From contig OZ024927.1 in assembly GCA_964017235.1 (NCBI GenBank), positions 57,169,293-57,233,292 on the forward strand: a stretch of DNA of 64,000 nucleotides, in the 5' to 3' direction. Shown here piece after piece: positions 1,004 through 56,889 of this stretch. The notes under the pieces were generated by a model. That model had not been told where the DNA came from and did not search any database. It worked only from the letters and a program-made list of their open reading frames with translations. Source of the stretch: Sabellastarte sp. h YS-2021. Its lineage: Eukaryota > Annelida > Polychaeta > Sabellida > Sabellidae. The position numbers and the translations under genes are program-made. Numbering within the stretch: position 1 is the stretch's first letter; every line of letters begins with the position of its first letter.

Positions 1004-4000
1004 CTGCAAATAGCCAGCAAATCAATGAGTAAACTAAGTTATGAATCTACATTTATAGCATCATGACATATGGCAAATCAAACTTTCTGATTATGTGATT
1101 GCACATTTAAAGTTCTTTAACTTTACAATATAGCATTCAGTCTCAAAAATTATAAAAATATACACAAAATTTCAGAAAGATGTTAATTCACCACACATTA
1201 CCGAGCCTCTTCTTCTTGTCGTTTCTTTTCCTCAGCCTCTCTTTGAGCTCTCTCCCGAGCCTCTCGTCTTTTTTCTGCCAGTTTTGCCTTGGCTTCCTCT
1301 TGGGCGGTCATTTTGGTGGGTGTTGCCTCGGCTTTGCTTGGCTCCGCCTTTTTTGAGGGGGTGCCTTCAGCAGATTTGGTCTGTTTGGCAGGTTCTTTTA
1401 CTGCAACTTCTGTCTTCTTCTCTTCCACTTTCTCCTTGATACTTGCTGACTCTGAGAGGCAAATACAGAAAGCTGAGAGAGATGTGGTGAAATTTATTAT
1501 TTACTCATTAGTAATATCCATACACAAATCTATTTAATCAATTGAAAAAAAAACTTAATTCAAGCCAGTACACACTCAAATTTATAAATTTAGTGGTAAT
1601 GCAAGCAGTAAACCACTACAACACTTTTTGTTTTGTAATAGAAAGAATGACAGCAAAAAATATTTAAGAATCAGTTATTGAAAATGTTAATACTAAAGGC
1701 TTTCTAATGTCCAACTAGTGACAGCAGTGAATAAACTAGAAATAGGACGCCTTGTTGATAGTAGATGCGAATAGAAACAGGATAGCATAGAAGAACACAC
1801 ATTATCATGTGTAATGTCCACCGCATGAACCTTTTGCCAAAATTGTACAGTAGTCTTACAAGACCCTGTTTCATTTGTAAAATATATCAATGATGCTTAA
1901 ACATTTATTAGTGTAGATGTAAATTATTTCAGCTTCATGCCTTTTTGCATTGGTTGGGTCGAAAATTTTGACGAAATCACTCTATCTTGCACGGTTAAGA
2001 AGATAGAAGCAAATTCCTGTTTTTCTATTTTATAGGGTAGAAAATTTTGACGAAATCGCTTTATCTTGCACGGTTAAGGAGATAGAAGCAATTTTGTGTT
2101 TTGTCATTTTTGGCAAAAATTCGAAAAATCAAAATGGCCGCCATTTTTGGGGAGGGGGAAAATTTTTTGAAAATTGCAAAGAGTACATTCCTTAGATACC
2201 CTGTGGGTTGAAAATTTCGATGAAATCACTCTATCTCGCACGGTTAAGGAGATAGAAGCAAATTTGTGTTTTGCCATTTTTGGCAAAAATTCGAAAATTC
2301 AAAATGGCCACCATTTTTGGGGAGGGGAAAATTTTTTGAAAATTGCAAAGAGTACATTCCTTAGATACCCTGTGGGTCGAAAATTTCGACGAAATTGCTC
2401 TATCTCGCACGGTTGAGGAGATAGAAGCAAATTTGTGTTTTGCCATTTTTGGCAAAAATTCGAAAATTCAAAATGGCCGCCATTTTTGGGGAGGGGAAAA
2501 TTTTTTGAAAATTGCAAAGAGTACATTCCTTAGATACCATCTGGGTCTAAAATTTCGACGAAATCGCTCTATCTCGCATGGTTTAGGAGATATGAGCACA
2601 TTTGCCTTTTTCAGTATTCAAAATAGCCAATTACTCATTTATTTAATTAATTACTCACTCATCTATAAAGCAATTCCCCCCAAAAGCAATCCCATACAAG
2701 CTATTAACCCAATGAACCTCCATACCAAATTTCAGAAAGCTAGGCTTAATAGCATTCCTTAAAATGTCTGGAAAACCAAAGAGCTACTCAAAAGTAGCAA
2801 AGTAGCTATTACTCAGTTAGCTATAGAGCTATCATCACCAAAAGCAATCCCATACAAGCTATTAACCCAATAAACCTGCATGCCAAATTTGGTAAAGATA
2901 GGATAAGAACTGTTGCCTAAAATGTCTGGAAACCAAGTGGGACGGCGGACGGCGGAAAAAGCAAAAATAATATGTCCACCCCCCAGTGGGGTGGACATAA
3001 TTACCACTTATAAACTAGACCTACGCATCGGAGAACCGATGCAAATCTGTATCCACCGAAAAGACAACTCACGAAAGCCAGTGAACCATCGTTTGACCTT
3101 GAGGGAGGGGACAAAGGTCAAATGTGACATCAGAAGATTCTCAGCCTACAATATCCTGTAAGTTGGTTTCACATTGCAAACCTCTAGGATCAATAATAAA
3201 CACGTTATAAACCCTTTTAAGTTTGGCTGTCCTCGTTTGACCTTGAAGGTCAAATCTGACCACATTAAAAGATTCCCAGCCCATGATTTCCTATAAGATG
3301 GTTTCACATTGCAAACCTCTAGGACCAATAATAAGCAAGTTATAAGCACTTTTACGTTTGGCTATCCTTGTATGACCTTGAATGAGAGGTCCAAGGTCAA
3401 ATCTGACCACATCAAAAGATTCCCAGCCCATGATTTCCTACAGGTTGGTTTACCATCCCAAACCTCTAGGACCAATAATAAGCGAGTTATAAGCACTTTT
3501 AAGTTTGGCTATCCTCGTTTGACCTTGAAGGAGGGGCCCAAGGTCTAATCAGACCACACCAGAAGATTCCCAGCTTATGATTTCCTATAGGTTGGTTTAC
3601 CATCCCAAATGTCTTGAACCAAAAATAAGCAGGTTATAACCACTTTTAACTTTGGCTATCCTTGTATGACCTTGAAGGAGGGGCTCAAGATCAAATCCGA
3701 CCACACCAGAAGATTCCCAGTTCATGATTTCCTACAGGTTGGTTTACCATCCCAAGTATCTTTGACCAAAAATAAGCGAGTTATAAGCACTTTTAAGTTT
3801 GGTTATCTTCGTATGACCTTGAAGGAGGGGTTCAAGGTCAAATCCGACCATACCAATAATTATCGAGTTATAAGCACTTTTACGTTTGGCTATCCTCATA
3901 TGACCTTGAAGAAGGGGTCCAAGGTCAAATCTGACCACATCAAAAGATTCCCAGCCCATCATTTCCTATAAGTTGCTTTACCATCCCAAACCACTAGGAC

Positions 4001-7000
4001 CAATAATAAGCGAGTTATAAGCACTTTTAAGTTTGGCTATCCTCGTTTGACCTTGAAGAAAGGGCCCAAGGTCAAATCCCACCACAACTGAGGATTCCCA
4101 GCCCATGATTTCCTATAGGTTGGTTTACCATCCCAAACCTCTAGGATCAATAATAAGCAAGTTATAAGCACTTTTAAGTTTGGCTATACTCGTTTGACCT
4201 TGAAAGAGGGGTCCAAGGTCAAATCTGACCACATCAAAAGATTTGCGGCACATGATTTCCTATAGGTTGGTTTCACATCGCAAACCTCTAGGATCAATAA
4301 TAAGGGAGATATAAGCACTTTTAAAGTCTGCTATGTGGGTTACTTTGGCACTCCGTGGAGGACCTTGAATTAAGAGCTTCAAGGTTAAATGTCTGCAAGG
4401 TTGTAGAGGACATATATATCTGTTATACATATCACCTATGAAGACATTCAACCTTCTACCTATGAAGACATTCAATAATAATAATAGATAATTTTCAAAG
4501 AAATGCCCGCAGTGGCCATCTTGTTTTTCAGAATGAGGCTAATTTCCTTCCCAGAGAAGCTTACCCCTCAATGAAGATATCCTGCAAATTTGGTGAACCA
4601 AGCTGATGCGTTAACACCGAAAATCTCTCTATGCGCGGCAGGCAATGCTAAACAAAAGTATCCACCGGAGGCATCAATTAACGTTCATTTATGCTCACGG
4701 ATTAGTTTCACAATACTGCTGACGGGTGTATGAAATACCACATTTTGTTCACTTCAAGGCCCTGGAAACCAATTTTAGTTTTCATGAATGGTTTGTCTAC
4801 TAAAATATGGTACCATGATTCACAATGCAAGACAATTTTCAACTTATCCTAAATATTGTCACAATCCACAATTAGCTTAATATAAAGACAAGGAAGGCTG
4901 TTACAATGCAATACATATTTTCTACAAATTTTCCAGGTAGGTCGATCACACTTTCAAACAAAATGAGAAGCATAATAATGAAGATAATGTGAGACAATCC
5001 AATGCAATAGTAGTGATAGAATGATTGTCAACAGACATCGAATGGTCGGTTAAAATTCATATTAGTTGCGATGATCGATCTGGAAGTAGCACACTTCAAT
5101 TCATCATTATTACTGACAATTTCATAAAATCTAGTTACTTTTCCTTATGTATCTCAATATCCACAAGTTTTAAATATTTTAAGCAGTTTCCTTTGATAAA
5201 ATGGTAGATTTTTCAAGAATTTTCGGGTCTGTTTATTTCTATTTGCAGGAAGTGAGTGTTTTTGGCGGATTTTAAATGTTGGAACAATGTCATTCTTACC
5301 TGATCCACATACACGTCACCCTGGAGTAAAAGAACTGATTATGGCATGAAAAAATGGACGATTAATTGACCATGTAAATTGGAGGCGATTTCCATCACTA
5401 TGCAATAGAAATTCAGATTTACCCTCATCTGTTTGATTTTTTGGTACTTCCTCAGAGGCAACTGGAGTGACCCCATCAGATGGAGACACCACCCTCTTCT
5501 CCTCCTCTCCTCCTGTTCTAGATGGTGGTCTGACCGCTTCATCTTTGACCTCATGTATGTCCTCTGAAGACCCAGCCTCCCGTGACTTTAAGTCTTTCTC
5601 TACATCCTTTTTCTCATTGGCTTCAGGCTTTGTTTCTTTTTCAATTGGCTGCTTGGCCTCGGGTGCTGGCTTATCTTTTGTAGTTTTTGACTTTCTGATC
5701 GGAGGTGGACCTTTACGTTCTGGTGGAGCTTTCTTCTCCCCACTAGGTGGAGCTTTTGTCCTCTCTCTAGAACTGCCAGTTGTACGCCTTTCTTTTGATA
5801 CTCTATCTTGAGAAGTTTGAACAGGTGTTGTTGGCTAAAATACAGAGGCAAGTAAAGCACAGGGGGAGGTATTTTTTACACTGAACAATTTTACTCTTTC
5901 TTAAAAATAAGTACAATTAAAGTAAGGGTAGCTGTCTTTCCTATTTTCAGAAAGACAAAACTTTTGATGACACATCTCATATAATTTTCATATATATAGG
6001 GAAGAATGTTTTGAAACCAAAGTTTTGAGAGGTATTACATTCATATAGTTTAAAATCTAATGAGAAGCTCCAGCACATGTGTAAAAGGCAGGACTGTCAG
6101 ATTATACAGCTTTTACACCTTTAAAACCCTTTACCATGTCATAACTTCAAAGCTGCAGATGAATTTGTCCTTGTATATCTGACCATGGTCCTTAATATTC
6201 ACCTTTTTGTGTTAAAATATTACTAACAAGAATAGTAAAGAAGTACTGAAATCAGCTAGATAATGTAAGGCACTCATAATCGGATAGACCTTCATTATAA
6301 AAATATGACATCACACTATCATGAGGCATTGAGCTTGTGAAGCTTTGGTTTTCATAATATGACCCATTTAAACCATCTGACATCATTGTGTAATTTGGGG
6401 CCACATTTTCTACAGTTTAGCCTGGGGGTTTGATTTTGGTTGATAATTAAATATGATAGCTGCTGGCCTTGTGGGAAATACAAAACTGAATTCATTCGAA
6501 GTTTCTTTATAAAATATGAATTCTCTTTAATACAGTTAAGTTCTGCTATGATCTTTGATATGGCAACATATTTTTTCAAGGTTTTATTGACAATAAAGTG
6601 TCAGGTTTCCTGTCAATGAGATGACTGTTTCAAAGTGTCACAGAAATGCAAAATGCCATTCATCAAACACTTTCAATTCTAATAATACAGAGCACTGCAT
6701 GACCTTTTTTTCTTTTACCTTAATATAGTACAATACAAAAAATATCTATTCATAAAAAAACAGCTGATAATAGCTGTGAAAACAGTACATGTCGAGGTTG
6801 GGTTCTCGTATTACAAATCGATATCACTCAATTTATATAAATGCCATGGTAAGAGATCAGAAGAAGCATGTTCTGCATTCACTATATATAATCTTCTCTG
6901 CATTTCATTCTGACAAACAACTAGTCATGAACTACTTCTATCCCTTTGATTATCAGCACCACATTTTCCCATTCAGACCCAATCAATACAATAAGAGCAT

Positions 7001-10000
7001 CAGACAGTGAGAGGTCTGTAACTTCAATGAAGCTAATAATTCCAACAAAGCTGACTAATCGCATGTACCCAGATGATAACTGTGTCAAAGCGGGGAATTC
7101 TCAAAAGGCTTTGTAACTTTGTTTGACTTAGTATTAAAATAACTAGAGGCACAAAATTAGAGACAAGGAACCTTCAGTACTTCAATATAGTTTCGGCTGT
7201 ATCTTTTTTGTCTTATTGCTACAATGCGGCAGTAAGTGCTGTATTTTTTTACAAGAAAAAAAAGAAGCTTACTTATGATTTTTTATGTATTCATAATCAT
7301 GTGACAAAAAGATAACAGTTATCATCAATCAATACACAGAATAAATATAACGCAGTTCACATAACAGGAAATGTAGCTCTCGAGACTGAGACTGAAATAC
7401 AAACATAGGTTACCACTGGCAGCATGTGGTCAAATAGTGTTATATGAAACATGTATATACATAACAATACTGTGAAATCTAAATGTCATACAAAACACCA
7501 TTGAAACCTGATACGCTGAACCACAATGGACGAGGAATCTATTTAACCAGAAACTCCTTATAACTAGGGAAACATTCAGTGAAGCCCATCTGATGGACCT
7601 GGTATATTGATACTAGAAAGGAAAATGTATTTGACAAGAGTGTCACTTAAACGATAACCTATGCGCATTATATTTAGTTATCTATGCATAATGTATGTTA
7701 GAAATCTGCAGTAAATATAGTGGCTTTTGTTTTTTTTCTCTCTGTCCTTTGCAGTTGCTAAAATCACTAAACTTGAAAGCCAATTATTTGGCTGAGATGA
7801 CCTTACACAGTCAAGAGGAAGTGAAATGGCAGACCTTTATCAAGAAAGAAGGAAGCAAATATTAATGTAACTGTGATTTGAAGTTCAGAGTATACATTTT
7901 CCAAGTGGTCCTCATAATAGACAAGCACACATATTCTGTCCATTCCATTCAAAACAGATATTCTTTGATAAATGAAGTGCTCTGAATTAATATGTACAAT
8001 CTCGTTGCCAATGTCTGTCATTTTTTTATGTTGCTTTGTTCATTAAATATTAACTGAAATAACACATAACTCATTTTGCAGCCACAATGACAGCTGAAGC
8101 AAGCCATGGTACAGCCACGGTTTGCCTGATTTGACCACAAAGTCATGATATTTATAAAGTAACAACAGTAGAAAGGGAATCGATTCAAAAACTGGTTTAA
8201 GCTTTTCTTCCTTTTTGCAAATGTGGATAATTAAAACTATTACATAGATTGTCTCAATAACTTCAAATGATACACGTCATTTGTAGTCCTTAACTGTACA
8301 ATTATTAATGCTAATTATACCGTATTTGCTCTCTGAAGTGCCCATGGGCAATGTGACCAAGTTTACTTGCAAAAGTTGGGGATGGACATTTACGAGCCTG
8401 GCGTTCTCGAAAAACTAACCAGAATCTTGGGGAAACACATTTTAGCAATCACCAACTGGAAGTAAAATGCAATTGATAAACAAATCTCTGCGCAATAAAA
8501 TGAGAAAGAACTGCTAAAATAAGGAAAATTTTGTTGAAAATGGATATAAAATAATAAGCAAATAAGCTGATTATTGGGTTTTGGTACAGAAAGTTAACCT
8601 TGAAAAGACATATCAACAATTTGCTACGATGACATATGATTATGGAGGGGCCCTTACGAAAGCAAGGGCTATATAGAGTGCAGCACCGGTATCATAGTGT
8701 TACAGACTCAAATGTGAAAAACATATGCCTTTTAAACTGAGAGTAAACCACAAGGAACAGGATAATAAGTGTAGTAATGCATTGCATTTTTCTTAAAAGT
8801 ATCAATTTTAAGTCTGATTTGATAATAACTTTGGGGAATGTTGCTGAGAAGTTTTACAGGGAAAAAAATCTTTCATGGTCTGCTTTGAACCACATGCAAT
8901 TAAAGGTTGACTTGCTGTCAAAAAACTACAGACACATAGAGTTTTATGCTTACCTTCAGCAACTATTAAGCTTTAATAGTTTAGTTGTGCACTCCCTGCC
9001 CTGGTTCTATAAGTCATTTAATGTAACATATTTCTGTATTAATTAACTCATGAGGGGAGTCAACAGGCTTTGTTACCTTGGTACTCCGTGCAGGTCTTTT
9101 CTCTGGTTGTGTGGGAGGTTTATGAATGGCTTTGACAGGTCCCTAGAAAAACCACACACACAGAGACACACATGTAGCAAGAAAAACAGGTCATACAACA
9201 GCGGGTCAGTGCGGTAAACAGGAAACAAGTGTGCAGAACTCAGTGTGTATATATGAACAGGAATGGAGAGAACAGCATTTCTCTTCTATATATTTATGAT
9301 ATAATGTTAAACCCTAATTAAAAGGATTGCAATGCTTCCACTAAATTAGAATTTTCAGGTAACAGGGTAAACTTCAGTAAAATAGGTCCTCTGGAGACAT
9401 GGTATTTACATCTACTTAAAAGGTGTATTCCACTAATCAGGGCCCTGTAGCAAGATATTTGATATTTCAAAATAATCAACGAGATTTGAAATTTGAATAA
9501 ACCTTCTGGTGTACGAAATTTGCTTATTTTTTGTATTAAAAAATACCCAGTTGAAATGCACACTTTATTTACTCTGCAATCTGAGAAAGAAATGAAACCC
9601 TCTGGCACTGTATTATGAAAATTTAGAAGATTTTATTCTTATAACACTGTGACAAAGATGTACAAAACTAGAGATTGCGTCTCGACACAGTGTATCATGG
9701 TTGAAGCGTGACATACAGAGTATTATGGTTGACACAAATATACCCCTGTGGGGAGCGGGCATAAGTGTTTATGGGGGCAACTTGTACTGACATTAAGTAA
9801 ACAAAATGTTTCCTTAATGAAAGATACAAATGTAACTAGATGTAGCTGATCAGAGAACCGATGCAAATTGTATCCACCAGAAAGAAAACTCGCCAATCAA
9901 CCATCACTTAACCTTGAAGGAGGAGTCCAAGGCAAAATCTGACCACATCAAAAGATTCTTATCCCATGATTTCCAATAGGCTAGTGTGACATTGCAAACC

Positions 10001-13000
10001 TCTAGGAACACGAATAAATGAGTTATAAGCACTTTTAATTTTGGCTATCCTCATTTGACCTTGAAAGAGGGGCCAAAGCTCAAATCTGATCGCACCAAAA
10101 GATTCCTAGGGCATGATTTCCTATAGGATGCTTTCACATTACAAACCTCTAGGACCAAGAAAAAGCGATTTATAAGCACTTTAGTATTTGCTATCCTCAT
10201 TTGACCTCGAAGGAAGGGCCCAAGGTCAAATCTGGCCACATCAGAAGATTCCCAACCCATGATTTCCTATAGGTTGGTTTCACACTGCAAACCTCTAGGA
10301 CCAATAATAAGCGAGATATAAGCACTTTTAAGTTTGGGTATCCTTGTTTGACCTTGAAGGAGGGGTCCAAGGTGAAATCTGACCACATAAAAAGATTCCC
10401 GGCCCATGATTTTCTGTAAGTTGGTTTGCCATCCCAAACCTGTACGACCAATAATAAGCGATTTATGAGAACTTTGAAGTTTGGCTATCCCCGTTTGACC
10501 TTGAAGGAGGGGTCCAAGGTTAAATCCGACCACACCAAAAGATTCCCAGCCCATGATTTCCTATAGGTTGGTTTTCCATCCCAAAACTCTAGGACCAATA
10601 ATAAGGGAGATATAAGCACTTTTCAGGACTGACAAAAAAAAACGCCCATGGCGGCCATCTTGTTTTTTAAAATGAGGCCGAAAATATTTCCAGTCAAGAT
10701 TTTGTAATATGGAACATATTCTGTGAATTTGAGATCTCTACCTAGAATACCGTTTGCTCTAGAGGGCCAACAAAAGTCCTTGCTTTAAGTCAAATAAACA
10801 TCCCTTGCGGCCATCTTGTTTTTCAAAATGAGGCAAAAAATATTCCCAGTCAAAATTTTATGGTTATGAATATATCCTGCAAATGTGAGAAGGCTAGGTA
10901 TAACATTTTTTTCGTTAGAGAGGCAACAGCCAATAATAAAGGAGGTATATGGCCTCACAGTCTAAGGTACCATTTTGAGTCATTTTAGCAGGCCTAAGGT
11001 GACCTTGAAAACAATAGCCAAGGTCAACAAACTTGATGCTGGTACTCCATCATGTACTCAACCTACAAAGCCATTTTCAATAGTTTCCATGTAATATAGT
11101 CAGCATTAAGTGTGAAAATATCTCCAAAAAGGCCAAAAATGGCCTCGGTGAGGTACTTCGGCGGTCTGTGGATGACCTTCAATGAAGAGCCTCAAGGTCA
11201 AATTTCTGCATGCTTACAGGGGACATATATACATATTATATATACCAGCCATAGGATGATCTAACTTTCTGTATATGAGAATTGGGCCAAAATGTGAAAA
11301 ATGGCCAAAATCTGACCTTTAAGAGGCCCCCAGTGACCTTGAAATTGAAGGTCAAGGTCACAACAACAGCATCGTCACATTGCCCATATATACCCATATA
11401 CCAAATTTGAAAGGTCTAACTAAAATATTTTTTAAGTTATCGCATCCAAAAGGAAATCTCTGTGGCGGCGGCGGCGTGACCGTACTGAATCCTAAGTATC
11501 CCCGACTTTTGTCCGGGGATACAATAATGGACAACAGTCTAATCATTAGATGCCAATTTCAAGTGGAAAGTGACTTTTTGGATAAAAAATTCCCTCAGGA
11601 TAGGTTTAATGTAGTAAAATCTCCATCTCCATACCTGTTCTTTAATATACTGTACAAGTGGATTTTTTTTTTCTTTCCTTTTTTAATTATTGAAACTGAA
11701 TAATCCTGACAGGTGAATGATGTTGAAAAAAATAAAGATGAAGTTTAATGTAATATTTACTGAAAGAATTATACCGGTGCCACGCTCTGTATCGCTCATG
11801 CTTTTGTAAGCGCCCATCCACAATCTATGTTATCTCCCATAAATTACTAATATGTTTTTTCGATGTAAACTTTCTCCATAAAAACCCAATAATCGGTCAA
11901 ATTTGATTAATTTATATCCCTTTTCAACAAATTTTTTTTTTATTTTAGTAATTATGTCACCTTTTATTGTGCTGAGATTTGTTTACCAACCGCATATTTT
12001 ACTTCCAGTCTGTATATGCTAAAACGCGGTTTCCCCAAATTCGGGTCATTTTTTTTCGAAACACCCAGCTGATTTTCATTGTCGTAAACACCCATCCCCA
12101 ACTTTTGCAAATATTTGGTCACATTGCCCATGGGCGTTACAGAGCACAGCTGTGGTAAATAACTTTAATTGGCATAACTTCAGGAGAACACCGACAGTAA
12201 GGTCTATAATTGTTAAGTATACCACTATTTTTGGTAACAAAATGAAATTATTATGATTTCTAAAAGATAATTTAAACAAGAGGAGAGTGCCCGTGAACGG
12301 GCACTGTGTCAGCTGACTGAGTGTTTTTGATTTGTGAAGGTGATTAGAGGACAGAATAATTATCAGGAAAAGGGCTGTACAGAAATACAGTAAATGGTAA
12401 CTGAACAGCAAGTTTGAAAGAAATTCCGAAGCTGACAGAAGAAAAGGATAAAAAAGTTGTGCCCTGTAAATGGTATTATGAAGGAAAATAACAAGGTAAT
12501 TGTTTAAGTGTAAAAAATAGGTTAAAACATATTTAAAGAAATACTACAAATGCAATATCCTCGTTCGACCTTGAAGAAGGGGTCAAAGGTCAAATCTAAC
12601 CACATAAATACATTCCCAGCCCATGATTTCCTATGGTTTACCATTCCAAACCTCTAGGACCAATTATAAATGAGTTATAAGCACTTTTAAGCTTGGCTGT
12701 CCTCATTTGACCTTGAAGGAGGGGTCCAAAGGTAAAATCTGACCATACCAAAAGATTCCGAGCCAATGATTTCCTATGGGATGGTTTACCATCCCAAATC
12801 TCTGTCACCAATAATAAGCGAGTTGTAGGCACTTTCAATTTTCGCTATCCTCATTTGACCTTTAAGGAGGGTTCCAAGGTCAAATCGGACCATATCAACA
12901 GATTCACAGCCCATGATTTCCTGTCTGTTTACCATCCCAAACCTCTGGGACCAATAATAAGCGAGTTATAAGCACTTTTAAGTTTGGCTATCCTTGTTTG

Positions 13001-16000
13001 ACCTTGAAGGAGGGGTCATTGAAGGTCAAATCTGACCACACCAAAAGATTCCCACCCCATGATTTCCTACAGGTTGGTTTATCATCCCAAACCTCTAGGA
13101 TCAATAATAAGGGAGATATAAGCACTTTTCATGACTGACAAAAAACACCTGTGGCGGCCATCTTGTTTCTCAAAATGAGGCCAAAAATATTCCCAGACAA
13201 CATTTTATGGTTATTAATATATACTGCAAACTTAAGAAAGCTAGCTATAATATTTTTTTTCATCAGAGCAGTAATGTTGAAATCTCTCTCTACACACTGA
13301 GGCTATCCAGCGGATACAATGATTTACTCAACAGTGAGAACCTGAAAGTAGCTATTGCTCAGCTATGCCATGACATAGAGGTCTGCAACTTCACTATGTT
13401 ATAGCTGACCAAAAATTCTGTGAATAACATATTTAACAAATTACTCTAAATGTAATAGTTTTCAAGTTACAACTGATTTACTCAACAGTGAGAACCTCAA
13501 AGGAACTATTACTCAGCTATGCAATGAGCTACATGTCTGAAATTTTACTATGTTATAGCTGACCCAAAAGTAGGTGAACAACATATTTAAGCAAACTACT
13601 GTAAATGCAATAGTTTTCAAGCTACAACTGATTTACTCAATAGTGAGAACCTGAAAATAGCTATTGCTCCGCTATGCCATGAGCTATAGGTCTGTAATTT
13701 CACTATGTTATAGCTGACCCAAAAGTAGGTGAACAATATATTTTAACAAAATACTCCAAATGCAATATTTTTCAAGTTATAGCTGATTTACTCAACAGTC
13801 AGTACCTGAGAATAGCTATTGCTCAGTTGTGCCATGAGCTATAGGTCTATAATTTCACTATGTTATAGCTGACCCAAAAGTAGCTGAATAACATATTTGC
13901 ACAAATTTCTGTAAATGCAATAGTTTTCCAATTATAACTGATTTACTCAACAGTGAGAACTTCAAAGTAGCTATTACTCAGCTATGAAATGAGCCACAGG
14001 TCTGAAACTTCACTATGTTATAGCTGACCCCAAAATAGGTGAATAACATATTGAAACAAAATACTCTAAATGCAATAGTTTTCAAGTTATAAGTGATTTA
14101 CTCAACAGTGATAACCTAAAAGTAGCTATTACTCAGCTATGCCATGAGCTACAGGTCTGAAATTTTACTATGTTATAGCTGGCCCAAAAGTAGCTGAATA
14201 ACATATTTATACGAAATTCTCTAAATGCAATAGTTTTTAAGTTACAAGTGATTTTACTCATGATGGAAGTTACTGAAAAGCCCAAAAGTAGCTATTACTC
14301 ACTTAGCTATTGAGACAGACACCCAACTTACTCACCATATTGTAGCTATGAAAAAAGTAGCTGAATAACATATTTTAACAAAATGCTCTAAATGCAACAC
14401 TTTTCAAGTTATAAGTGATTTACTCAACAGTGATAACCTCAAAGTAGCTATTACTCAGCTATGCCATGAGCTACAGGTCTGAAATTTTACTATGTTATAG
14501 CTGACCCAAAAGTAGCTGAATAACATATTTATACGAAATTCTCTAAATGCAATAGTTTTCAAGTTATAAGTGATTTACTCAACAGTGATAACCTAAAAGT
14601 AGCTATTACTCAGCTATGCCATGAGCTACAGGTCTGAAATTTTACTATGTTATAGCTGGCCCAAAAGTAGCTGAATAACATATTTATACGAAATTCTCTA
14701 AATGCAATAGTTTTCAAGTTATAAGTGATTTACTCAACAGTGATAACCTAAAAGTAGCTATTACTCAGCTATGCCATGAGCTACAGGTCTGAAATTTTAC
14801 TATGTTATAGCTGGCCCAAAAGTAGCTGAATAACATATATATACGAAATTCTCTAAATGCAATAGTTTTTAAGTTACAAGTGATTTTACTCATGATGGAA
14901 GTTACTGAAAAGCCCAAAAGTAGCTATTACTCACTTAGCTATTGAGACAGACACGCAACTTACTCACCATATTGTAGCTATGAAAAAAGTAGCTGAATAA
15001 CATATTTTAACAAAATGCTCTAAATGCAACACTTTTCAAGTTATAAGTGATTTACTCAACAGTGATAACCTAAAAGTAGCTATTACTCAGCTATGCCATG
15101 AGCTACAGGTCTGAAATTTTACTATGTTATAGCTGACCCAAAAGTAGCTGAATAACATATTTATACGAAATTCTCTAAATGCAATAGTTTTCAAGTTATA
15201 AGCGATTTACTCAACAGTGATAACCTAAAAGTAGCTATTACTCAGCTATGCCATGAGCTACAGGTCTGAAATTTCACTATGTTATAGCTGGCCCAAAAGT
15301 AGCTGAATAACATATTTATACGAAATTCTCTAAATGCAATAGTTTTTAAGTTACAAGTGATTTTACTCATAATGGAAGTTACTGAAAAGCCCAAAAGTAG
15401 CTATTACTCACTTAGCTATTGAGACAGACACCCAACTTACTCACCATATTGTAGCTATGAAAAAAGTAGCTGAACAACATATTTTCACAAAATGCTGTAA
15501 ATGCAACACTTTTGAAGTTATAAGTGATTTAGTGCATGATTTCATGAATTTTAATGCATTAAAAACTAGATTGGGCCAACTCGGCGCCAACATATCCCCA
15601 GACAGGTCATCACTCACGCCACAGGTTTTGATCGGGAATTTTTAAAAACATAATTACCCATTATTATATGAACTTCAGCACATCAATCTACTCTGTTTAT
15701 ATCTTCCAAGGAAGATGGTGTATCCCCAGACGCCGAATACATAACTCAAATTATATTTTCAATCTTCCTGCAATGATAACTCTAAACCTATTTTCAAAGT
15801 ATTTAAATGATTGATGATTGAATGTCCATTCTAAAATAATAATCCCAAAAGAGCATATCTGTTTCTATATTTGTTGACAAATAAAATATTATTTAAAAAA
15901 AAATTATTTATATTATTATTTTATTATATTATTTTTAGAATTTGCAAATTGTTTTCAGTTATTCATTTCCTCTATACCTATATATGTGGTCCATATATAT

Positions 16001-19000
16001 GCAACCTAAATATGTGACACAATCTCAGTTCTGACTCCCCTTTGTGTTATATGTAATGAAGCCCACCACCTCCCACCCCCACCCCTCTCCCCTTCTCCAC
16101 ACCTCTCTCACTATTACACAAGATCTGCAACCCCATTGAGTTCTTTGTTTCTCATCTGATATCATTAAATACCTTTGTTTATTTAGTGTCACTCAATATA
16201 GCTGGAGGTCCCAGAGGTGGGTGGGGGGGAATCCGGGTGGGGGATGTGGGTTGAGCATAAATGGTAAACAAACAATCTATATAAAAGGGGTACTCAAATA
16301 CAAAAAGAATTGAGAATTTTAAGTATGTGATTATCAACTGAAATGAGTTCATAACTGTAGGAGCTGTGCCAAAATTAACTGAGGCAAGTTGAATAAAACT
16401 GGGCTAGTTGAGGGTTAAAAATCCCCTAGTTTTACTACATAAGGATATAATTTCATTAATATTGGGACTTAAAGCTCACTTAAAGTGTCCATTTTGTCTA
16501 CTTGAATATGTTTAACCAGTTTCATTTTAAAAAGTGAAAAACTCAGCAAGCAGAGGTGGGTGGGGGGAATCCGGGTGGGGGATGTGGGTTGGGACTTAGT
16601 TTAGTTTATTAGTTTATTATAGTGACATGTATTATGTTGACAAGGATTATACAAAAACTATTGAAGTAATACCCAGCCCTATATGGGCTTATAAGTCACT
16701 TTAAATAGAGAGTTAATAACAAACAGAGCAAACATATTTTGAGGTAAGATACAGTAAATAAAGACAGCAATTCAATACATAAAAATTAACAATATAATTT
16801 ACTTTTTCTTTCTTGCCACAAATCAAAAATAAAATTAATAACCATATTGCCATTCATATGAGTTAATACCCTTGATAATTGATCTATTAATAATTCAGAT
16901 TTATCTATATTTAAAATTTTGAAATATTTCATACGAATCAGCTCTAAAGCTGGACAAACACAAACAAAATGTATCTCATCTTCTACATCTTTTTTACACA
17001 GTTTACATGTTCTCTCAAAGAGATGGAGTGCTACAGCAAAAATGGTAAACAAACAATCTATATAAAAGGGGTACTCAAATACAAAAAGAATTGAGAATTT
17101 TAAGTATGTGATTATCAACTAAAATGAGTTCATAACTGTAGGAGCTGTGTCAAAATTAACTGAGGCAAGTTGAATAAAACTGGGCTAGTTAAGGGTTAAA
17201 AATCCCCTAGTTTTACTACATACGGATATAATTTCATTAATATTGGGACTTAAAGCTCACTTAAAGTGTCCATTTTGTCTACTTGAATATGTTTAACCGG
17301 CGTTTAACCAGTTTCATTTTAAAAAGTTAAAAACTCAGCAAGCAGAGGTATAACACACAAAAATAAGTTCTTAAAAGACTAAGATAGCCATAACATTATT
17401 AATATTCAAAATTTAAATAGACAGGCATTTCCTTTTAAAAATTCAAAGATTTCAGCTCTATAACCCACATAGTTTGACAGTTACTGGGCTTTAAAGTGGC
17501 ATAATGTCCATAAATTGGGTTTCTGTGGGCATTTTACAATTGTTAAAGAGACCTTAGCAATTAAACTACAGATCTGAAACTTTTTGGGGGACATACATAA
17601 CAAACAAAAATTATATATAATACAGTTTAAGACTTGTCACACTAAGCATTTCCAAATAACAGGGCAAAATACGGAAAAAATGTCCAAAAAGGCACTTGGG
17701 CGAGTGTCTATGGCCCTCATACACAGGTTAAATGTCTACTAAAAACCTTGATTTTCGCCATATGTAAAAAGGACATAATAATGCATTCCCAGATGGGATT
17801 TCAGCTCCATCAATCACATAGTTTAACAGTCACAGGGCTTAAAGGTGGCAAAAAGTCCAAATATTGGGTCTCTGTGGGCCTTTTAGAGATCTCGATGTGG
17901 CTTTCAAATTAAAGCTTCAGACTTAAAATTTGTTACATACTAAGATTACACATAGAATATGTATCTAATAAAGTTTGAAACTTCTCAGACTTACCATTTC
18001 CAAGTTACAGAGCAAAATATGTGACAAATGTCTTAAAAGGGTCACTCAGGTGGGTGTTTAAGGTCCTCATACACAGGTTAAATGTCTACTTGAAGCCTTG
18101 ATTTTTGGCACATGTAAAAAGAACATAATAATGTATTCCCAGATGAGATTTCAGCTCTATCAGTCACATAGTTTAACAGTCACAGGCCTTAAAATTGGCA
18201 AAAAGTCCAAATACTGGGTCTTTATGGGGCCTTCTAGAGACCTAAATGTGGCCTTCAAATTAAAGCTTCAGACTTAAAATTTGTCACATACTAAGATTAC
18301 ACATAGAATATGCATCTAATACAGTTTGAAACTTCTTAGACTTACCATTTCCAAGTTACAGGGCAAAATATGTGAAAAATGTCTAAAAATGGTCACTCGG
18401 GTGGGGATTTATGGTCCTCATACACAGGTTAAATGTCTTCTTAAAGCCTTAATTTTTGGCACATATATAAATAACATACTAATATCTTCCCAGATAGGAT
18501 TTGAGCTCTATCAGTCACATAGTTTGACAGTCACAGGGCTTAAAAGTAGCAAAAAGTCCAAATATTGGGTCTTTGGGAGCCTTTTAGAGACCTCAATTTG
18601 ACCTTCAAAATTAAAGCTTCAGACTTAAAATCTGTTACATACTAAGATTACACACAGAATATATATCTAATACAGTTTGAAACTTCTCAGACTTACCATT
18701 TCCAAGTTACAGGGAAAAAGATGTGAAAAATGTCTTATAAGGGTCACTCGGGTGGGTGTTTATGGTCCTGATACACAGGTTAACTGTCTATTAAAGGCCT
18801 AAATGTTGGGGCACATATAAGAAAACACATAGATATATTCCCAGATGATATTTAACTTAGATGAGAGACATAGTTTTAAAGCTACAGTGCTTGAAAGTGG
18901 CAAAAAGTGCATAAATTGGGTCTCTGTGGGCACTTTTGAGACCTTAAGTTGACCCCTTTGGGTAAACCTACAGCCCTAAAATTTTCTACAGACAAGGATT

Positions 19001-22000
19001 ACATATCAAAGTTATACCTAGCACAGTTTGAGACTCATCAGAATTACCACTTCCAAATTATAGGGCAAAATATGTGAAAAGTATAGCAAAAAATCCCTAA
19101 GTGGGGGTATTTATGGGCCTCAAAGACAATTTTCTCCTCAACTTAAAGTCGTGATTTTCGGCACATGTACTAAGAACATATTAATGTGTTGTCAGGTAAA
19201 ATTTCAGCCAGCTGAGCATCATAGTTTGTGACCTACAGGGCTCTAAGTGGCCAAAAGTCCAATTTCTGACCTTAAGGTGGCCATAAGTTCTTTTTTACTG
19301 GGAGTTTAAGGTCACCTTAAAATAGGGATCTTCCTTTGGGCACCCTTAACATGTGTACCAAGTTTGAAAAAAAAATATTAATTTGTTTTTGAGTTATCGC
19401 GTCCACAAGGAAATTTCTACGGCGGCGGCGGCGGCGCGACGGACCTGAATCCAATATATCCCCGACTTTCGTCTGGGGATATAATTATTAAAAAAATTTA
19501 TTTAAAAAAAAGTAAGACAGATCCAGGTCTCATACTCACACAAGAGAATCTACCTCTGGCCTAGTACATATATGCAAGATATGAGAGAAATCCCTGCAAT
19601 AGTCACTGAGAAAATTGTGATAAAAAGTTGAAATTTTCACACTTTTGGTGGGGGTACCCCCCTTGTAATGTCTCTAGCAAAGAGACCAACAGACAGATTT
19701 GCATGCCTTGAACAATTTTTCATCCTCGATAGATAAGGTATCTTTTAAAAAAAACAGCATGTCTCTAGGCCTTGTAGTTTTGGAGAAGAAGTTGTTCACG
19801 CGGACGCGTACGCCCACGCCGCAGAGTGATGACATAATGTCAGCTGACTGACAAGTCAGCTGACATAAAAATCAGCCAGAAATAAATCCACTTGAACAGC
19901 ATGACACTACTTTGCAATAATTCCAATTTTTTTAAAGAAAAGTATGTACATAATGAAATACTAGAGAATCATTGGATATACATTGATAAATTCAACAGTT
20001 TTTACAATTTTAAGAAAAAATTTCTAACAGAAAGGTTTCTATATATTGTAGTGCACAAGAGAATATGTACATTTAATTAAATTTAGGTTAAAATCAATCA
20101 ACAAATATGAACAAAATTATAGAAAAATATAATTTACACAACTGATTGCTGACAAGTATTCCTTTTATTTTATTATTATTTTATTAAGATTTTTTTGAAT
20201 GTTTTAATTAAAACAGAAAACATATTGTTAGAAACAGACATCATGTCTTGCTCTGGCCATTCTGAAAATAAACGTTTAATTGTTTTATCTATTACATATG
20301 CAGATTAAACATATATAGAACTGCTATCTTCAATGCGAGATGCTAACTATTGTCACAGTTTGATCATTTGAAATAGTGGTTTTACATATTCAAAACTAGA
20401 TTGGGCCAACTCGGCGCCAACATATCCCCAGACAGGTCATCACTCACGCCACAGGTTTTGATCGGGAATTTTTAAAAACATAATTACCCATTATTATATG
20501 AACTTCAGCACATCAATCTACTCTGTTTATATCTTCCAAGGAAGATGGTGTATCCCCAGACGCCGAATACATAACTCAAATTATATTTTCAATCTTCCTG
20601 CAATGATAACTCTAAACCTATTTTCAAAGTATTTAAATGATTGATGATTGAATGTCCATTCTAAAATAATAATCCCAAAAGAGCATATCTGTTTCTATAT
20701 TTGTTGACAAATAAAATATTATTTTTAACTCAACTCATCATACTTTTCAATCTTCCTTCAAAGTATTTAAATGATTGATGATTCAATGTCCATTCTAAAA
20801 TTCATAATCCCAAAAGCGCATATCTGTTTCTATATTTGTTCACAAATAAAATATTATTTAAAAAAAAATTATTTATATTATTATTTTATTATATTATTTT
20901 TAGAATTTGCAAATTGTTTTCAGTTATTCATTTCCTCTATACCTATATATGTGGTCCATATATATGCAACCTAAATATGTGACACAATCTCAGTTCTGAC
21001 TCCCCTTTGTGTTATATGTAATGAAGCCCACCACCTCCCACCCCCACCCCTCTCCCCTTCTCCACACCTCTCTCACTATTACACAAGATCTGCAACCCCA
21101 TTGAGGTCTTTGTTTCTCATCTGATATCATTAAATACCTTTGTTTATTTAGTGTCACTCAATATAGCTGGAGGTCCCAGAGGTGGGTGGGGGGAATCCGG
21201 GTGGGGGATGTGGGTTGGGACTTAGTTTAGTTTATTAGTTTATTATAGTGACATGTATTATGTTGACAAGGATTATACAAAAACTATTGAAGTAATACCC
21301 AGCCCTATATGGGCTTATAAGTCACTTTAAATAGAGAGTTAATAACAAACAGAGCAAACATATTTTGAGGTAAGATACAGTAAATAAAGACAGCAATTCA
21401 ATACATAAAAATTAACAATATAATTTACTTTTTCTTTCTTGCCACAAATCAAAAATAAAATTAATAACCATATTGACATTCATATGAGTTAATACCCTTG
21501 ATAATTGATCTATTAATAATTCAGATTTATCTATATTTAAAATTTTGAAATATTTCATACGAATCAGCTCTAAAGCTGGACAAACAAACAAAATGTATCT
21601 CATCTTCTACATCTTTTTTACACAGTTTACATGTTCTCTCAAAGAGATGGAGTGCTACAGCATAAATGGTAAACAAACAATCTATATAAAAGGGGTACTC
21701 AAATACAAAAAGAATTGAGAATTTTAAGTATGTGATTATCAACTGAAATGAGTTCATAACTGTAGGAGCTGTGTCAAAATTAACTGAGGCAAGTTGAATA
21801 AAACTGGGCTAGTTGAGGGTTAAAAATCCCCTAGTTTTACTACATACGGATATAATTTCATTAATATTGGGACTTAAAGCTCACTTAAAGTGTCCATTTT
21901 GTCTACTTGAATATGTTTAACCGGCGTTTAACCAGTTTCATTTTAAAAAGTTAAAAACTCAGCAAGCAGAGGTATAACACACAAAAATAAGCTCTTAAAA

Positions 22001-25000
22001 GACTAAGATAGCCATAACATTATTAATATTCAAAATTTAAATAGACAGGCATTTCCTTTAAAAAATTCAAAGATTTCAGCTCTATAAACCACATAGTTTG
22101 ACAGTTACTGGGCTTTAAAGTGGCATAATGTCCATAAATTGGGTTTCTGTGGGCATTTTACAATTGTTAAAGAGACCTTAGCAATTAAACTACAGATCTG
22201 AAACTTTTTGGGGGACATACATAACAAACAAAAATTATATATAATACAGTTTAAGACTTGTCACACTAAGCATTTCCAAATAACAGGGCAAAATACGGAA
22301 AAAATGTCCAAAAAGGCACTTGGGCGAGTGTCTATGGCCCTCATACACAGGTTAAATGTCTACTAAAAACCTTGATTTTTGCCATATGTAAAAAGGACAT
22401 AATAATGCATTCCCAGATGGGATTTCAGCTCCATCAATCACATAGTTTAACAGTCACAGGGCTTAAAGGTGGCAAAAAGTCCAAATATTGGGTCTCTGTG
22501 GGCCTTTTAGAGATCTCGATGTGGCTTTCAAATTAAAGCTTCAGACTTAAAATTTGTTACATACTAAGATTACACATAGAATATGTATCTAATAAAGTTT
22601 GAAACTTCTCAGACTTACCATTTCCAAGTTACAGAGCAAAATATGTGAAAAATGTCTTAAAAGGGTCACTCAGGTGGGTGTTTAAGGTCCTCATACACAG
22701 GTTAAATGTCTACTTGAAGCCTTGATTTTTGGCACATGTAAAAAGAACATAATAATGTATTCCCAGATGAGATTTCAGCTCTATCAGTCACATAGTTTAA
22801 CAGTCACAGGCCTTAAAATTGGCAAAAAGTCCAAATACTGGGTCTTTATGGGGCCTTCTAGAGACCTAAATGTGGCCTTCAAATTAAAGCTTCAGACTTA
22901 AAATTTGTCACATACTAAGATTTACCATTTCCAAGTTACAGGGAAAAATATGTGAAAAATGTCTAAAAATGGTCACTCGGGTGGGGATTTATGGTCCTCA
23001 TACACAGGTTAAATGTCTTCTTAAAGCCTTAATTTTTGGCACATATATAAATAACATACTAATATCTTCCCAGATAGGATTTGAGCTCTATCAGTCACAT
23101 AGTTTGACAGTCACAGGGCTTAAAAGTAGCAAAAAGTCCAAATATTGGGTCTTTGGGAGCCTTTTAGAGACCTCAATTTGACCTTCAAAATTAAAGCTTC
23201 AGACTTAAAATCTGTTACATACTAAGATTACACACAGAATATATATCTAATACAGTTTGAAACTTCTCAGACTTACCATTTCCAAGTTACAGGGAAAAAG
23301 ATGTGAAAAATGTCTTATAAGGGTCACTCGGGTGGGTGTTTATGGTCCTGATACACAGGTTAACTGTCCACTAAAGGCCTAAATGTTGGGGCACATATAA
23401 GAAAACACATAGATATATTCCCAGATGATATTTAACTTAGATGAGAGACATAGTTTGAAAGCTACAGTGCTTGAAAGTGGCAAAAAGTGCATAAATTGGG
23501 TCTCTGTGGGCACTTTTGAGACCTTAAGTCGACCCCTTTGGGTAAACCTACAGCCCTAAAATTTTCTACAGACAAGGATTACATATCAAAGTTATACCTA
23601 GCACAGTTTGAGACTCATCAGAATTACCACTTCCAAATTATAGGGCAAAATATGTGAAAAGTATAGCAAAAAATCCCTAAGTGGGGGTATTTATGGGCCT
23701 CAAGGACAATTTTCTCCTCAACTTAAAGTCGTGATTTTCGGCACATGTACTAAGAACATATTAATGTGTTGTCAGGTAAAATTTCAGCCAGCTGAGCATC
23801 ATAGTTTGTGACCTACAGGGCTCTAAGTGGCCAAAAGTCCAATTTCTGACCTTAAGGTGGCCATAAGTTCTTTTTTACTGGGAGTTTAAGGTCACCTTAA
23901 AATAGGGATCTTCCTTTGGGCACCCTTAACATGTGTACCAAGTTTGAAAAAAAAATATTAATTTGTTTTTGAGTTATCGCGTCCACAAGGAAATTTCTAC
24001 GGCGGCGGCGGCGGCGCGACGGACCTGAATCCAATATATCCCCGACTTTCGTCTGGGGATATAATAATATCTTACCCTATCATACTGGTTCCCTATTGTC
24101 AGAGGAATACCATACTTCTTAATTTAAAAAAATTTAGTACTCTGAGAGTGGTATCAGATGGGTAAACATTAAAGTATATTTTGGTTTAGTAAATATATCA
24201 AGTGTCCCAAAACACTGGCTTTAAGAGTGATTTGTAAATTTTGAAATAAGGAGAAAAAAAAGTTCATTACATTATAATTCAGAGACAGTATTTTTGTGTT
24301 AGTTAATTTAAAAATTAGGAAATGGTTAAGAACACCAAGAGGCCACATCAGTTAAAAGGAAAGACACTAATTATACTCATGTTTAAAATTTAACAAAAGA
24401 AACTAAAACTAGTGCTGTCATGACACACACCTCTTCTGATAATAATGTTTACTATGTCTACTATGAGTGATAATTGGATGTATTTTTTTAAATCTTATTA
24501 TAAAGATATCAATATATTTATATAATAATGATATAATATCCTTGAAAAGTGAAAGATTCTACTCTTTTTACATTTACCTATCTTAGTGTTTTGACATCCC
24601 AGTCGATAGAGATGAAGTTAGATGATCTATTAGAAAATGTATTGCTCGCATGTAGTTTTGCAATTTTTACTTTATTTTTTTAGGTCAGTAGATTAATTAG
24701 ATTGACGCAAAACTTCAAATACTGTGATAACATTGTAATTTTATTTATTTGAGATTTATGTGCCATACTATAGCCATTATAAAGAATTTTATGTACAGAA
24801 TTAGATAACTGTTTTGACATGCTGATGATTTTTCAAAGTGTTCCACTACTGGACAATGAAAGAAGAACTGGAAAAAATTATGACACTATAAAACAGCATA
24901 TAAAGGTGAGAAAACAATATTATTGTACATTTTAATTGAATAGTTTCACTCTGAGTTGAGTTTTTGAAATCAATATATGTTTGCAGTGGTGAGTGACAGC

Positions 25001-28000
25001 ACTAATTACAACATTTGCTTTGGGATATTTTTAAATCACTGATTTAACATTTTCAATTAAAAAGAAAAATTAGACACATCTACAAAACTGTGCACACTAT
25101 ATTAAAATGCATAGCTTAATGGCTGCCTCAATATTAATGTGTAAATTGAAATTTCTGGGAGTTTCTTGACAGAAAAGCTCATCTGAGGTGTAAAAATGAT
25201 CTTTTACAGATGATTAAATTTATGCATTTCATTTTCCTGTAAATTAAATTTCATTTGGAAAAGAACTGATGTTAGATCAATGTTAATGTTCTTAACATAT
25301 TGGGTTGTAATAAACAGTTTTCCAGATATGGATAAATAGAATAACTAGACCTACGCATCGGAGAACCAATGCAAATTTGTATCCACCGGAAAGACAACTC
25401 ACCAAAGCCAGTGAACCATCGTTTGACCTTGAAGGAGGGGCCAAAGGTCAAATCTAACAACATCAGAAGATTCCCAGCCCATGATTTCCTATGAGTTGGT
25501 TTCACATCGCAAACCTCTAGGATCAATAATAAGCGAGTTATAAGCACTTTTAGATTTGGCCATCCTCATTTGATGTTGAAGGAGGGGCTCAAAGTCAAAT
25601 CTGACCACATCAAAAGATTCCCAGCCCATAATTTCCTATAATTTGGTTTCACATTGCAAACCTCTAGGACCAACAATAAGCGAGTTATAAGCATTTTAAG
25701 TTTGGCTATCCTCATTTGACCTTGAAGGAGGGGTCCAAGGTCAAATCTGACCCCATCAAAAGATTGTCCGCCCATGATTTCCTATGAATTGATTTAACAT
25801 TGCAAACCTCTAGGACCAATAATAAGCGAGTTATAAGCACTTTTGACTTTGGCTATCCTCGTTTGACCCTGAAGGAGGGGCCCAAGGTCAAAGCTGAACA
25901 CATCAAAAGATTCCAAGCCCATGATTTCCTACAGGTTGGTTTAATATCCCTAACTTCTAGGGCCAATAATATGCGAGTTATAAGCACTTCTAACTTTGGC
26001 TATCCTCATTTGACCCTGAAGGAGGGGCCCAAGGTCAAATCTGAACATATCAAAAGATTCAAAGCCCATGATATCCTATAGGTTGGTTTACCATCCCAAA
26101 CCTCTAGGACCAATAATAAGCGAGTTATAAGCACTTTTAAGTTTGGCTATCCTAGTTTGACCTTGAATGAGGGGAGCAAGGTCAAATCCGATCACACCAA
26201 AAGATTCCCGGCCCATGATTTCTTATAGGTTGGTTTACCATCTCAAACATCTAGGACCAATAATAAGCAAGTTATAAGCACTTTTAACTTTGGCTATCCT
26301 CGTTTGACCTTGAAGGAGGGGCCCAAAGTCAAATCCGACCACTACAGAAAATTCCCATCCCATGATAGGTTGGTTTATAATCCCAAACCACTAGGACCAA
26401 TAATAAGCGAGATATAAGCACTTTGTTAGGTTGGCTATCCTTGTTTGACCTTGAATGAGGGGCCCAAGGTCAAAGCTAAACACATCAAAAGATTCCCAGC
26501 CCATGATAACCTATATGTTGGTTTACCATCCAAAACCTCTAGGACCAATAATAAGTGAGTTATAAGCACTTTTAAGTTTGGCTATCCTCGTTTGACCTTG
26601 AATGAGGGGCCCACGGTCAAATCCGACCACACCACAAGATTCCCAGCCCATGATTTCCTATAGTTTGGTTTACCATCCCAAACCTCTGGGACCAATGATA
26701 AGCAAGTTATAGGCACTTTTAACTTTGGCTATCCTTGTTTGACCTTGAAGGATGGGCCCCAAGGTCAAATCTGACCACACCAGAAGATTCTCAGACCATG
26801 ATTTCCTATAGGTTGGTTTACCATCCCAAACCTCTAGGACCAATAATGAGTGAGTTATAAGCACTTTTAAGTTTGACTATCCCCGTTTGACCTTGAAGGA
26901 GGGGCTCAAGGTCAAATCCGACCACACCAGAAGATTCCCAGCCCATGATTTCCTATATGTTGGTTTACCATCCCAAATCTCTAGGACCAATAATAAGTGA
27001 GTTATAAGCACTTTTAAGTTTGGCTATCCTCATTTGACCTTGGAAGGGGCGACCCAAGGTCAAATCCGACCACACCAGAAGATTCCCAGTCCACGATTTC
27101 CCATAGGTTGGTTTACCATCCCAAACTTCTAGGAGCCATACTAAGCGAGTTATAAGCACTTTTAAGTTTGGCTATTGTCGTTTGACCTTGAACGAGAGGC
27201 CCAAGGTCAAATCTGACCACACCAAAAGATTCCCAGCCCATGATTTCCTATAGGTTGGTTTACCACCCCAAACCTCTAGGACCAATAATAAGCGACCTCA
27301 TTTGACCTTGAAGGAGGGGTCCAAGTTAAATCTGACCACATCAGAAGATTCGCAGCACATGATTTCCTATAGGTTGGTTTCACATTGCAAACGTCTAGGA
27401 CCAATAATAAGCACTTTTAAAGTCTGCTATGTGGGTTACTTTGGCACTCTGTGGATGACCTTGAATTAAGAGCTTCAAGGTCAAATGTCTGCAAGGTTGT
27501 CGAGGACATATATATCTGTAATGCATATCACCTATGAAGAGATTCAACCTTCTACCTATGAGAAACAGCCAGTAGAAAAATATAGATAATTTTTAAAGAA
27601 ATTCCCGCAGTGGCCATCTTGTTTTTCAGAATGAGGCTAATTTCAGTTCCAGAGAAGCTTACCCCCCCCCCCCCCCCCCCCCCCCCCAATGACGATATCC
27701 TGCAAATTTGGTGAACCTAGCTGGTGTAGTTTTCCTCTGAGAGCAATAACACCGAAAATCTCTACGCGCGGCGGCGTAGCGAACACTAAATCAAACTATC
27801 TACCGGATGCCTCCAGTGGATACAATTAGTGAATCGATGCCTAACAGAATGAAATCACCAGCTTGTAGTCTTGTATGCAGTAAAAATACTATTTAACTAT
27901 TACTCAATTATCTGCATTATATTATCACCTTCAGTGATATGTGTTTGTGGGGAAACTAAAACAAAGGAAAATCCTGCAGGGATTAAAAAGTGAGGCAGCT

Positions 28001-53600: not shown

Positions 53601-53713
53601 TTAAGGTCACCTTAAAATAGGGATCTTCCTTTGGGCACCCTTAACATGTGTACCAAGTTTGAAAAAAAAATATTAATTTGTTTTTGAGTTATCGCGTCCA
53701 CAAGGAAATTTCT

Positions 53714-53762
<49 letters not shown>

Positions 53763-56700: not shown

Positions 56701-56889
56701 TACTGGGAGTTTAAGGTCACCTTAAAATAGGGATCTTCCTTTGGGCACCCTTAACATGTGTACCAAGTTTGAAAAAAAAATATTAATTTGTTTTTGAGTT
56801 ATCGCGTCCACAAGGAAATTTCTACGGCGGCGGCGGCGGCGCGACGGACCTGAATCCAATATATCCCCGACTTTCGTCTGGGGATATAA
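50683..56889 (-). mobile_element. family 1 Helentron-like element, tandem copy 3 (head-head-body-body)
   Basis: 6,207 bp. The 186-bp left terminus (CTAG and hairpin) is present twice (50683-50868 and 50869-51054). A body to 53809 then ends in the full right hairpin and ATAA, directly followed by a second body (53810-56889) that starts at the base equivalent to 51055 and has no left terminus. The flanks are ttaaaa and ttaag. Neither body has the LINE fragment. The first has two and the second three 351-bp units. Confidence 0.82.
53714..53762. repeat. expanded CGG trinucleotide run
   Basis: About 15 uninterrupted CGG units next to the right terminus of the first body. The other three family 1 right ends (19420s, 23999-24016, 56824-56841) have about five or six. 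Confidence 0.9.

Follow-up and report, generated by a model that had tools for sequence, protein, structure and literature searches.

The 3,919-bp segment referred to here as copy A is very probably a non-autonomous, satellite-carrying element of the Helentron type (HINE), which lies on the minus strand and would have been moved by the Rep/helicase of a partner through a rolling-circle process. It was found in the window, i.e., the whole 64-kb stretch of DNA that was analysed, together with three further copies of the same family, family 1, and members of other HINE-like families (Table 1). The original prediction had been a Helitron2/Helentron-type insertion rather than a cut-and-paste one. 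Our analyses support it: the published anatomy fits nearly every feature tested, and a second empty site agrees with the first. Copy A shows this clearly, but the type itself, the Helentron-related HINE among rolling-circle elements, is already known and copy A is an ordinary case of it.

Table 1. Insertions, empty sites and parts of copy A, with positions in the window.
Feature	Position	Strand	Remarks
HINE family 1, copy A	15566..19484	-	3,919 bp including terminal TT; host is composite copy 1
5' end of copy A: TT + subTIR ATATCCCCAGAC	19471..19484	-	
5' hairpin: subTIR + GAAA + imperfect complement GTCGGGGATAT	19455..19483	-	
CGG/CCG microsatellite, 5 units	19420..19434	.	adjoins 5' module
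Central tandem repeats, period 351 bp, 4.7 copies	17447..19080	.	
3' subTIR GTCTGGGGATAT	15592..15603	-	26 bp from 3' terminus
3' subterminal hairpin TTGGCGCCGAGTTGGCCCAA	15571..15590	-	weak
3' terminus CTAG	15566..15569	-	
Empty site in composite copy 2	62732..62750	+	
HINE family 1, copy B	20396..24064	-	3,669 bp
HINE family 1, inner (nested) copy	50869..53809	-	2,941 bp
HINE family 1, outer copy	50683..56889	-	own pieces 50683-50868 + 53810-56889, 3,266 bp; split by inner copy
Empty site of nested insertion in copy A	15740..15760	+	same 21-mer at 20570 in copy B
HINE family 2 copy, 147-bp repeats	25345..27825	-	end hairpins weak: z -1.5 and -0.8
HINE family 2 copy	35444..36469	-	3' hairpin z -4.2
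HINE family 2 copy, altered 5' end	3015..4677	-	5' boundary less sure
Mosaic copy	9836..11524	-	3' end family 2-like, 5' end family 1-like (82% over 99 bp)
Family 3 (HINE-like), composite copy 1	12277..19868	-	host of copy A; strong hairpins, both ends
Family 3 (HINE-like), composite copy 2	59616..63100	-	without 5' palindrome; carries empty site

Copy A is present in composite copy 1 and absent at the matching point of composite copy 2. It is bordered by gcattaaaaa up to 15565 on the left and by ttatta from 19485 on the right, while the empty site is represented by the 19-mer gcattaaaaattattaaaa, which occurs a single time in the window with both strands counted. The two composite copies were aligned, as had been proposed, by joining the flanks of copy A (300 bp per side). 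The alignment had 614 columns, of which 14 were overhang and were excluded; 594 of the other 600 were identical, and the differences, five mismatches and one single-base gap, left the junction itself unaffected. Both the uninterrupted composite repeat and the insert between 15565 and 19485 were thus borne out. The claim that nothing was duplicated or lost beyond one ambiguous base held for the clean junction but not for the number of ambiguous bases, which is two. The empty site reads GCATT-AAAAA-TTATT and the filled site GCATT-AAAAA-CTAG...GATAT-AA-TTATT, i.e., where the empty site has AAAAA, the filled site has AAAAA on the left plus AA on the right. This AA may belong to the element or may have arisen by duplication of 2 bp, and the ends of copy A are fixed to within these two bases.

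Within the window, family 1 provides a second, independent empty site, that of the nested copy. The stretch 50683-56889 was assigned as a nested insertion because its junctions fall within the outer element; a tandem rolling-circle array was rejected, the junctions not being end to end. The target of the nested insertion, CATAACTCAAATTATATTTTC, is intact in both copy A and copy B. Across the rejoined site, 199 bases of the outer copy align with copy A, 196 of them identical, and there are two gap positions; the comparison with copy B gives the same values. The junction of the nested copy has the same form as that of copy A. At both empty sites TT lies on either side and a duplication longer than 2 bp is impossible; consistent target duplications, named in the original prediction as an observation that would speak against it, cannot exceed 2 bp at the two sites examined. 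A second, near-identical copy of the subterminal inverted repeat (subTIR), GTATCCCCAGAC, was noted at 15720-15731, starting 128 bp inside the 3' subTIR of copy A, and the nested insertion point in the outer copy is situated about 20 bp past the counterpart of this repeat.

Read 5' to 3' on the minus strand, the family 1 element consists of TT, a 12-bp subTIR with a partial complement, a CCG microsatellite, 351-bp tandem repeats, the 3' subTIR, a weak hairpin and CTAG. This is the order in published descriptions of HINEs, which list a 5' subTIR, IR, microsatellite, tandem repeats, 3' subTIR and palindrome, together with a T-rich target and no duplication (PMC7492417, PMC4067079); the palindrome is weak in our element. 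The 12-bp inverted repeats that had been predicted proved exact at 15592-15603 and 19471-19482, and they are asymmetric, 2 bp from the 5' terminus and 26 bp from the 3' terminus; HINEs are characterised by asymmetric subTIRs of 11-15 bp. Among 200,000 random 3,919-bp segments of the window, three had the reverse complement of the terminal 12-mer within 60 bp of the opposite end, and these three may overlap copy A. Allowing up to two mismatches, the 12-mer occurs 22 times versus 4.0 expected, with 16 of the 22 occurrences in the four family 1 copies. The element ends were not among the 25 longest of 127 inverted-repeat pairs in the window. The first 40 nt at the 5' end gave a predicted fold of -9.7 kcal/mol (z -4.7), equalled by none of 200 shuffles. 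At the other end, CTAG and a hairpin (stem TTGG.GCC) are present as expected, but the energy of this hairpin is no better than chance (z -1.4), since 18 of 200 shuffles fold equally well. Pairing of the 5' subTIR with the 3' subTIR was predicted at -14.1, versus -10.7 for pairing with its own IR (-9.3 as hairpin). The CGG run is found in all four family 1 copies, and in the nested copy it extends to 15.7 units (53715-53761).

Full-length pairwise identities of the family 1 copies were 98.87-99.55% over ungapped columns, with 391-1,310 gap columns per pair excluded, among them differences in repeat number and inserts; copies A and B agreed at 99.55% of 3,534 ungapped columns, with 520 columns excluded as gaps. 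Given these values the insertions look recent, and an identity of about 99% points to recent movement. The four copies have differing flanks, while their printed ends are identical over 46 bp at one end and 50 bp at the other. An additional segment, 16558-17034, is carried by copies A and B and is missing from the remaining two. By eye we take it to resemble a LINE 3' end in reverse; a 110-aa frame within it gave no Pfam match. In copy A the block adjoining this segment is also duplicated.

A six-frame Pfam search of copy A, the one family 1 copy searched among the four, revealed no transposase, Rep or helicase domain when stops were read as X. The sole listing at E<=1 was a K1-lyase domain with E 0.13, under its cut-off. 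Copy A has no accepted protein domain, and therefore a partner should move it. No autonomous Rep/helicase partner was seen in the window, and no long open frame either; among frames closed by stops on both sides within the window, the longest is 172 aa. Ten of the 17 window frames of at least 110 aa were searched in Pfam without a match above the cut-off, and a solved-structure search with one frame gave no match.

In the proposed mechanism, a Rep/helicase from an unseen partner would nick at N^TT, a putative nick-site type that recurs at three places: the 5' end of the element (A^TT-ATATCC), just beyond its 3' end (CTAG^TT) and the target (A^TT). Rolling-circle replication would displace one strand, which would be joined to the target with no target duplication. 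The 5' subTIR has two potential pairing partners, its imperfect neighbour and, with greater predicted stability, the 3' subTIR, and the latter pairing may mark the end point. For Helitron2 it has been suggested that, when both repeats pair, the 5' hairpin is opened and the end point thereby determined (PMC3627910), which the stronger predicted pairing of the two subTIRs fits. The ends of copy A, the two empty sites, the lack of an accepted protein domain in copy A and the A^TT target are direct observations, and the occurrence of A^TT at all eight CTAG-ended insertions counts in favour of the HINE reading. The rolling-circle step is one that we infer from the anatomy of the family, and the enzyme, the sites at which it nicks, the transfer of the strand and a circular form are likewise putative; amplicons of FoHeli1 suggest a circular form (PMC5148889).

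Other origins of the insert were weighed. An ancestral insert that composite copy 2 lost by precise deletion is exceedingly improbable: one pair of sites cannot polarise the change, but the same ends recur in three further copies with other flanks, and the site of the nested one is uninterrupted in two copies. An AA/TT target duplication of 2 bp, made by a cut-and-paste or MITE-type element, would agree with the AA seen on both sides of all eight CTAG-ended copies, and a duplication of this length is formally possible. It would be 2 bp at most, however, and the ends are asymmetric, with the inverted repeat 2 bp from one terminus and 26 bp from the other, the hairpins differ between the ends, and CTAG is found at one end only, so that we regard such an element as very unlikely.

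Closer to our data, although still improbable, is a non-autonomous canonical Helitron (Helitron1) in which the inverted repeats would be incidental. It would account for the 3' CTAG, the weak subterminal 3' hairpin and insertion at A^T. All eight CTAG-ended insertions, i.e., two families and the mosaic copy, are at A^TT on the minus strand with the terminal TT counted to the element, against a minus-strand background in which A precedes 27% of TT dinucleotides. The hairpins are weak at the family 1 3' end and in the family 2 copy at 25345. The 5' TC of Helitron1 is absent, however, and TT precedes the 5' subTIR; TT likewise stands before the first element-specific base in all eight (the copy at 3015 has an altered 5' end). 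The 5' hairpin and the asymmetric subTIRs are assigned in the literature to Helitron2/Helentron. CTAG ends and A^T insertion are described as typical of canonical Helitrons, and Helentrons are described with TT (PMC5148889). The preferred reading remains a Helentron-type HINE, of tentative subclass because its CTAG end and its A^T site are both traits of canonical Helitrons. Tentatively, and with considerable doubt, one may think of a young, probably still active proto-Helentron lineage, combining Helitron-like termini (TT...CTAG at A^T) with the full Helentron anatomy. One Rep/helicase nicking N^TT at both donor ends and target would then explain the TT at both ends without duplication.

Satellite-bearing HINEs are known from bivalves. 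Cg_HINE of Crassostrea gigas, as described, has an 11-12 bp 5' subTIR, an adjacent IR, a microsatellite, satellite-like central repeats and a 3' subTIR with palindrome, like the element here, in which the palindrome is weak, and also a T-rich target at which target duplication was not found (PMC7492417); this likeness is drawn from published descriptions. The central repeat period averages 140-180 bp in Cg_HINE versus 351 bp here, and the 3' CTAG is explicit here, whereas the main text of that paper does not contain the word CTAG (PMC7492417). At least two Ts were reported at each end of every HINE insertion, with unclear assignment (PMC4067079), which is the same ambiguity as in copy A; a similar one is described for FoHeli1 and FoHeli2 (PMC5148889). 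Helitron2 resembles our element, according to its description, in a 5' ATIR that forms a hairpin of its own and is located 0-2 bp from the end, in a 3' ATIR upstream of the hairpin at 20-30 bp from the end (26 bp here), and in lacking target duplication where the 5' end of a copy is complete; unlike here, algal Helitron2 inserts after TTTT and shows duplications at truncated copies (PMC3627910). Proto-Helentron-Pi from Phytophthora infestans shares the 5' TT, the 3' CTAG and A/T insertion without target duplication, but is described as autonomous, about 14 kb long, with Rep/helicase and a Helitron-like structure, whereas the element here has subTIRs and no coding domain (PMC4067079). Helitrons of the Pacific oyster are reported with a CTAG 3' end and an upstream hairpin and with A/T insertion in 86%; among 751 of them, 257 carry subTIRs, and one third of these 257 also have an IR. 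Our elements share the CTAG, the subTIRs and the A^T insertion, and also the hairpin, which is weak in family 1; the authors suggest intermediates between Helitrons and Helentrons (PMC7992393). They differ in a 5' TC, a mean length of 1,092 bp and a microsatellite in one element only, compared to a 5' TT, 2.9-3.9 kb and the CGG run in all four family 1 copies here (PMC7992393).

Elements that combine a CTAG end with subterminal repeats and insertion at A^T are accordingly already published for the Pacific oyster (PMC7992393), and the understanding of these elements is unchanged by our find. The case is unusually clean, as two empty sites within one 64-kb window define the ends to two bases. 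It adds to reports of animal elements between canonical Helitrons and Helentrons, and to reports that such intermediate elements spread satellite repeats. A full-text search, judged by title and covering neither figures, supplements nor animal repeat libraries, did not find the subTIR 12-mer or its complement in transposon papers; the four papers it gave had unrelated titles. Exact-pattern scans of viral contigs, from which records of the window's own genome were possibly excluded, returned 0 stretches each for the 3' end and for two kinds of tandem repeats. A custom detector for CTAG, hairpin and inverted repeat was discarded; it gave two overlapping hits at 7564 and missed all known copies, while each of 20 shuffles gave 0-3 hits.

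The family 2 and mosaic copies start with CTAGA and have AA in front. The host of copy A, the composite repeat, is HINE-like too, with end hairpins of z -4.3 and -7.1 and the subterminal repeat GTCAGCTGAC at both ends of composite copy 1. The 5' palindrome of composite copy 1 is missing in copy 2 (19836-19868 compared with 63090-63105), the loss running from one GACAT repeat to another, a pattern as expected if a hairpin was deleted or transposition stopped early. All ten HINE-like copies have one orientation, with the 3' end leftward, and a self-comparison with the minus strand (E <1e-5) revealed no inverted member of these families in the window. The two-sided chance of this is about 0.002 if the copies are independent, the pattern having been spotted post hoc. 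Frames which by eye we take to resemble a MAP7-type gene are also on the minus strand. A palindrome at 2973-3003, GTCCACC...GGTGGACATAATTA, lies near a 169-bp array (2035-2604) and is a candidate 5' end for another HINE family, for which a matching 3' end was not found. Three inverted-repeat pairs with 75-84% identity (1-329/48032-48362, 8331-8695/11768-12144 and 44029-44177/49071-49221) are perhaps other transposon families.
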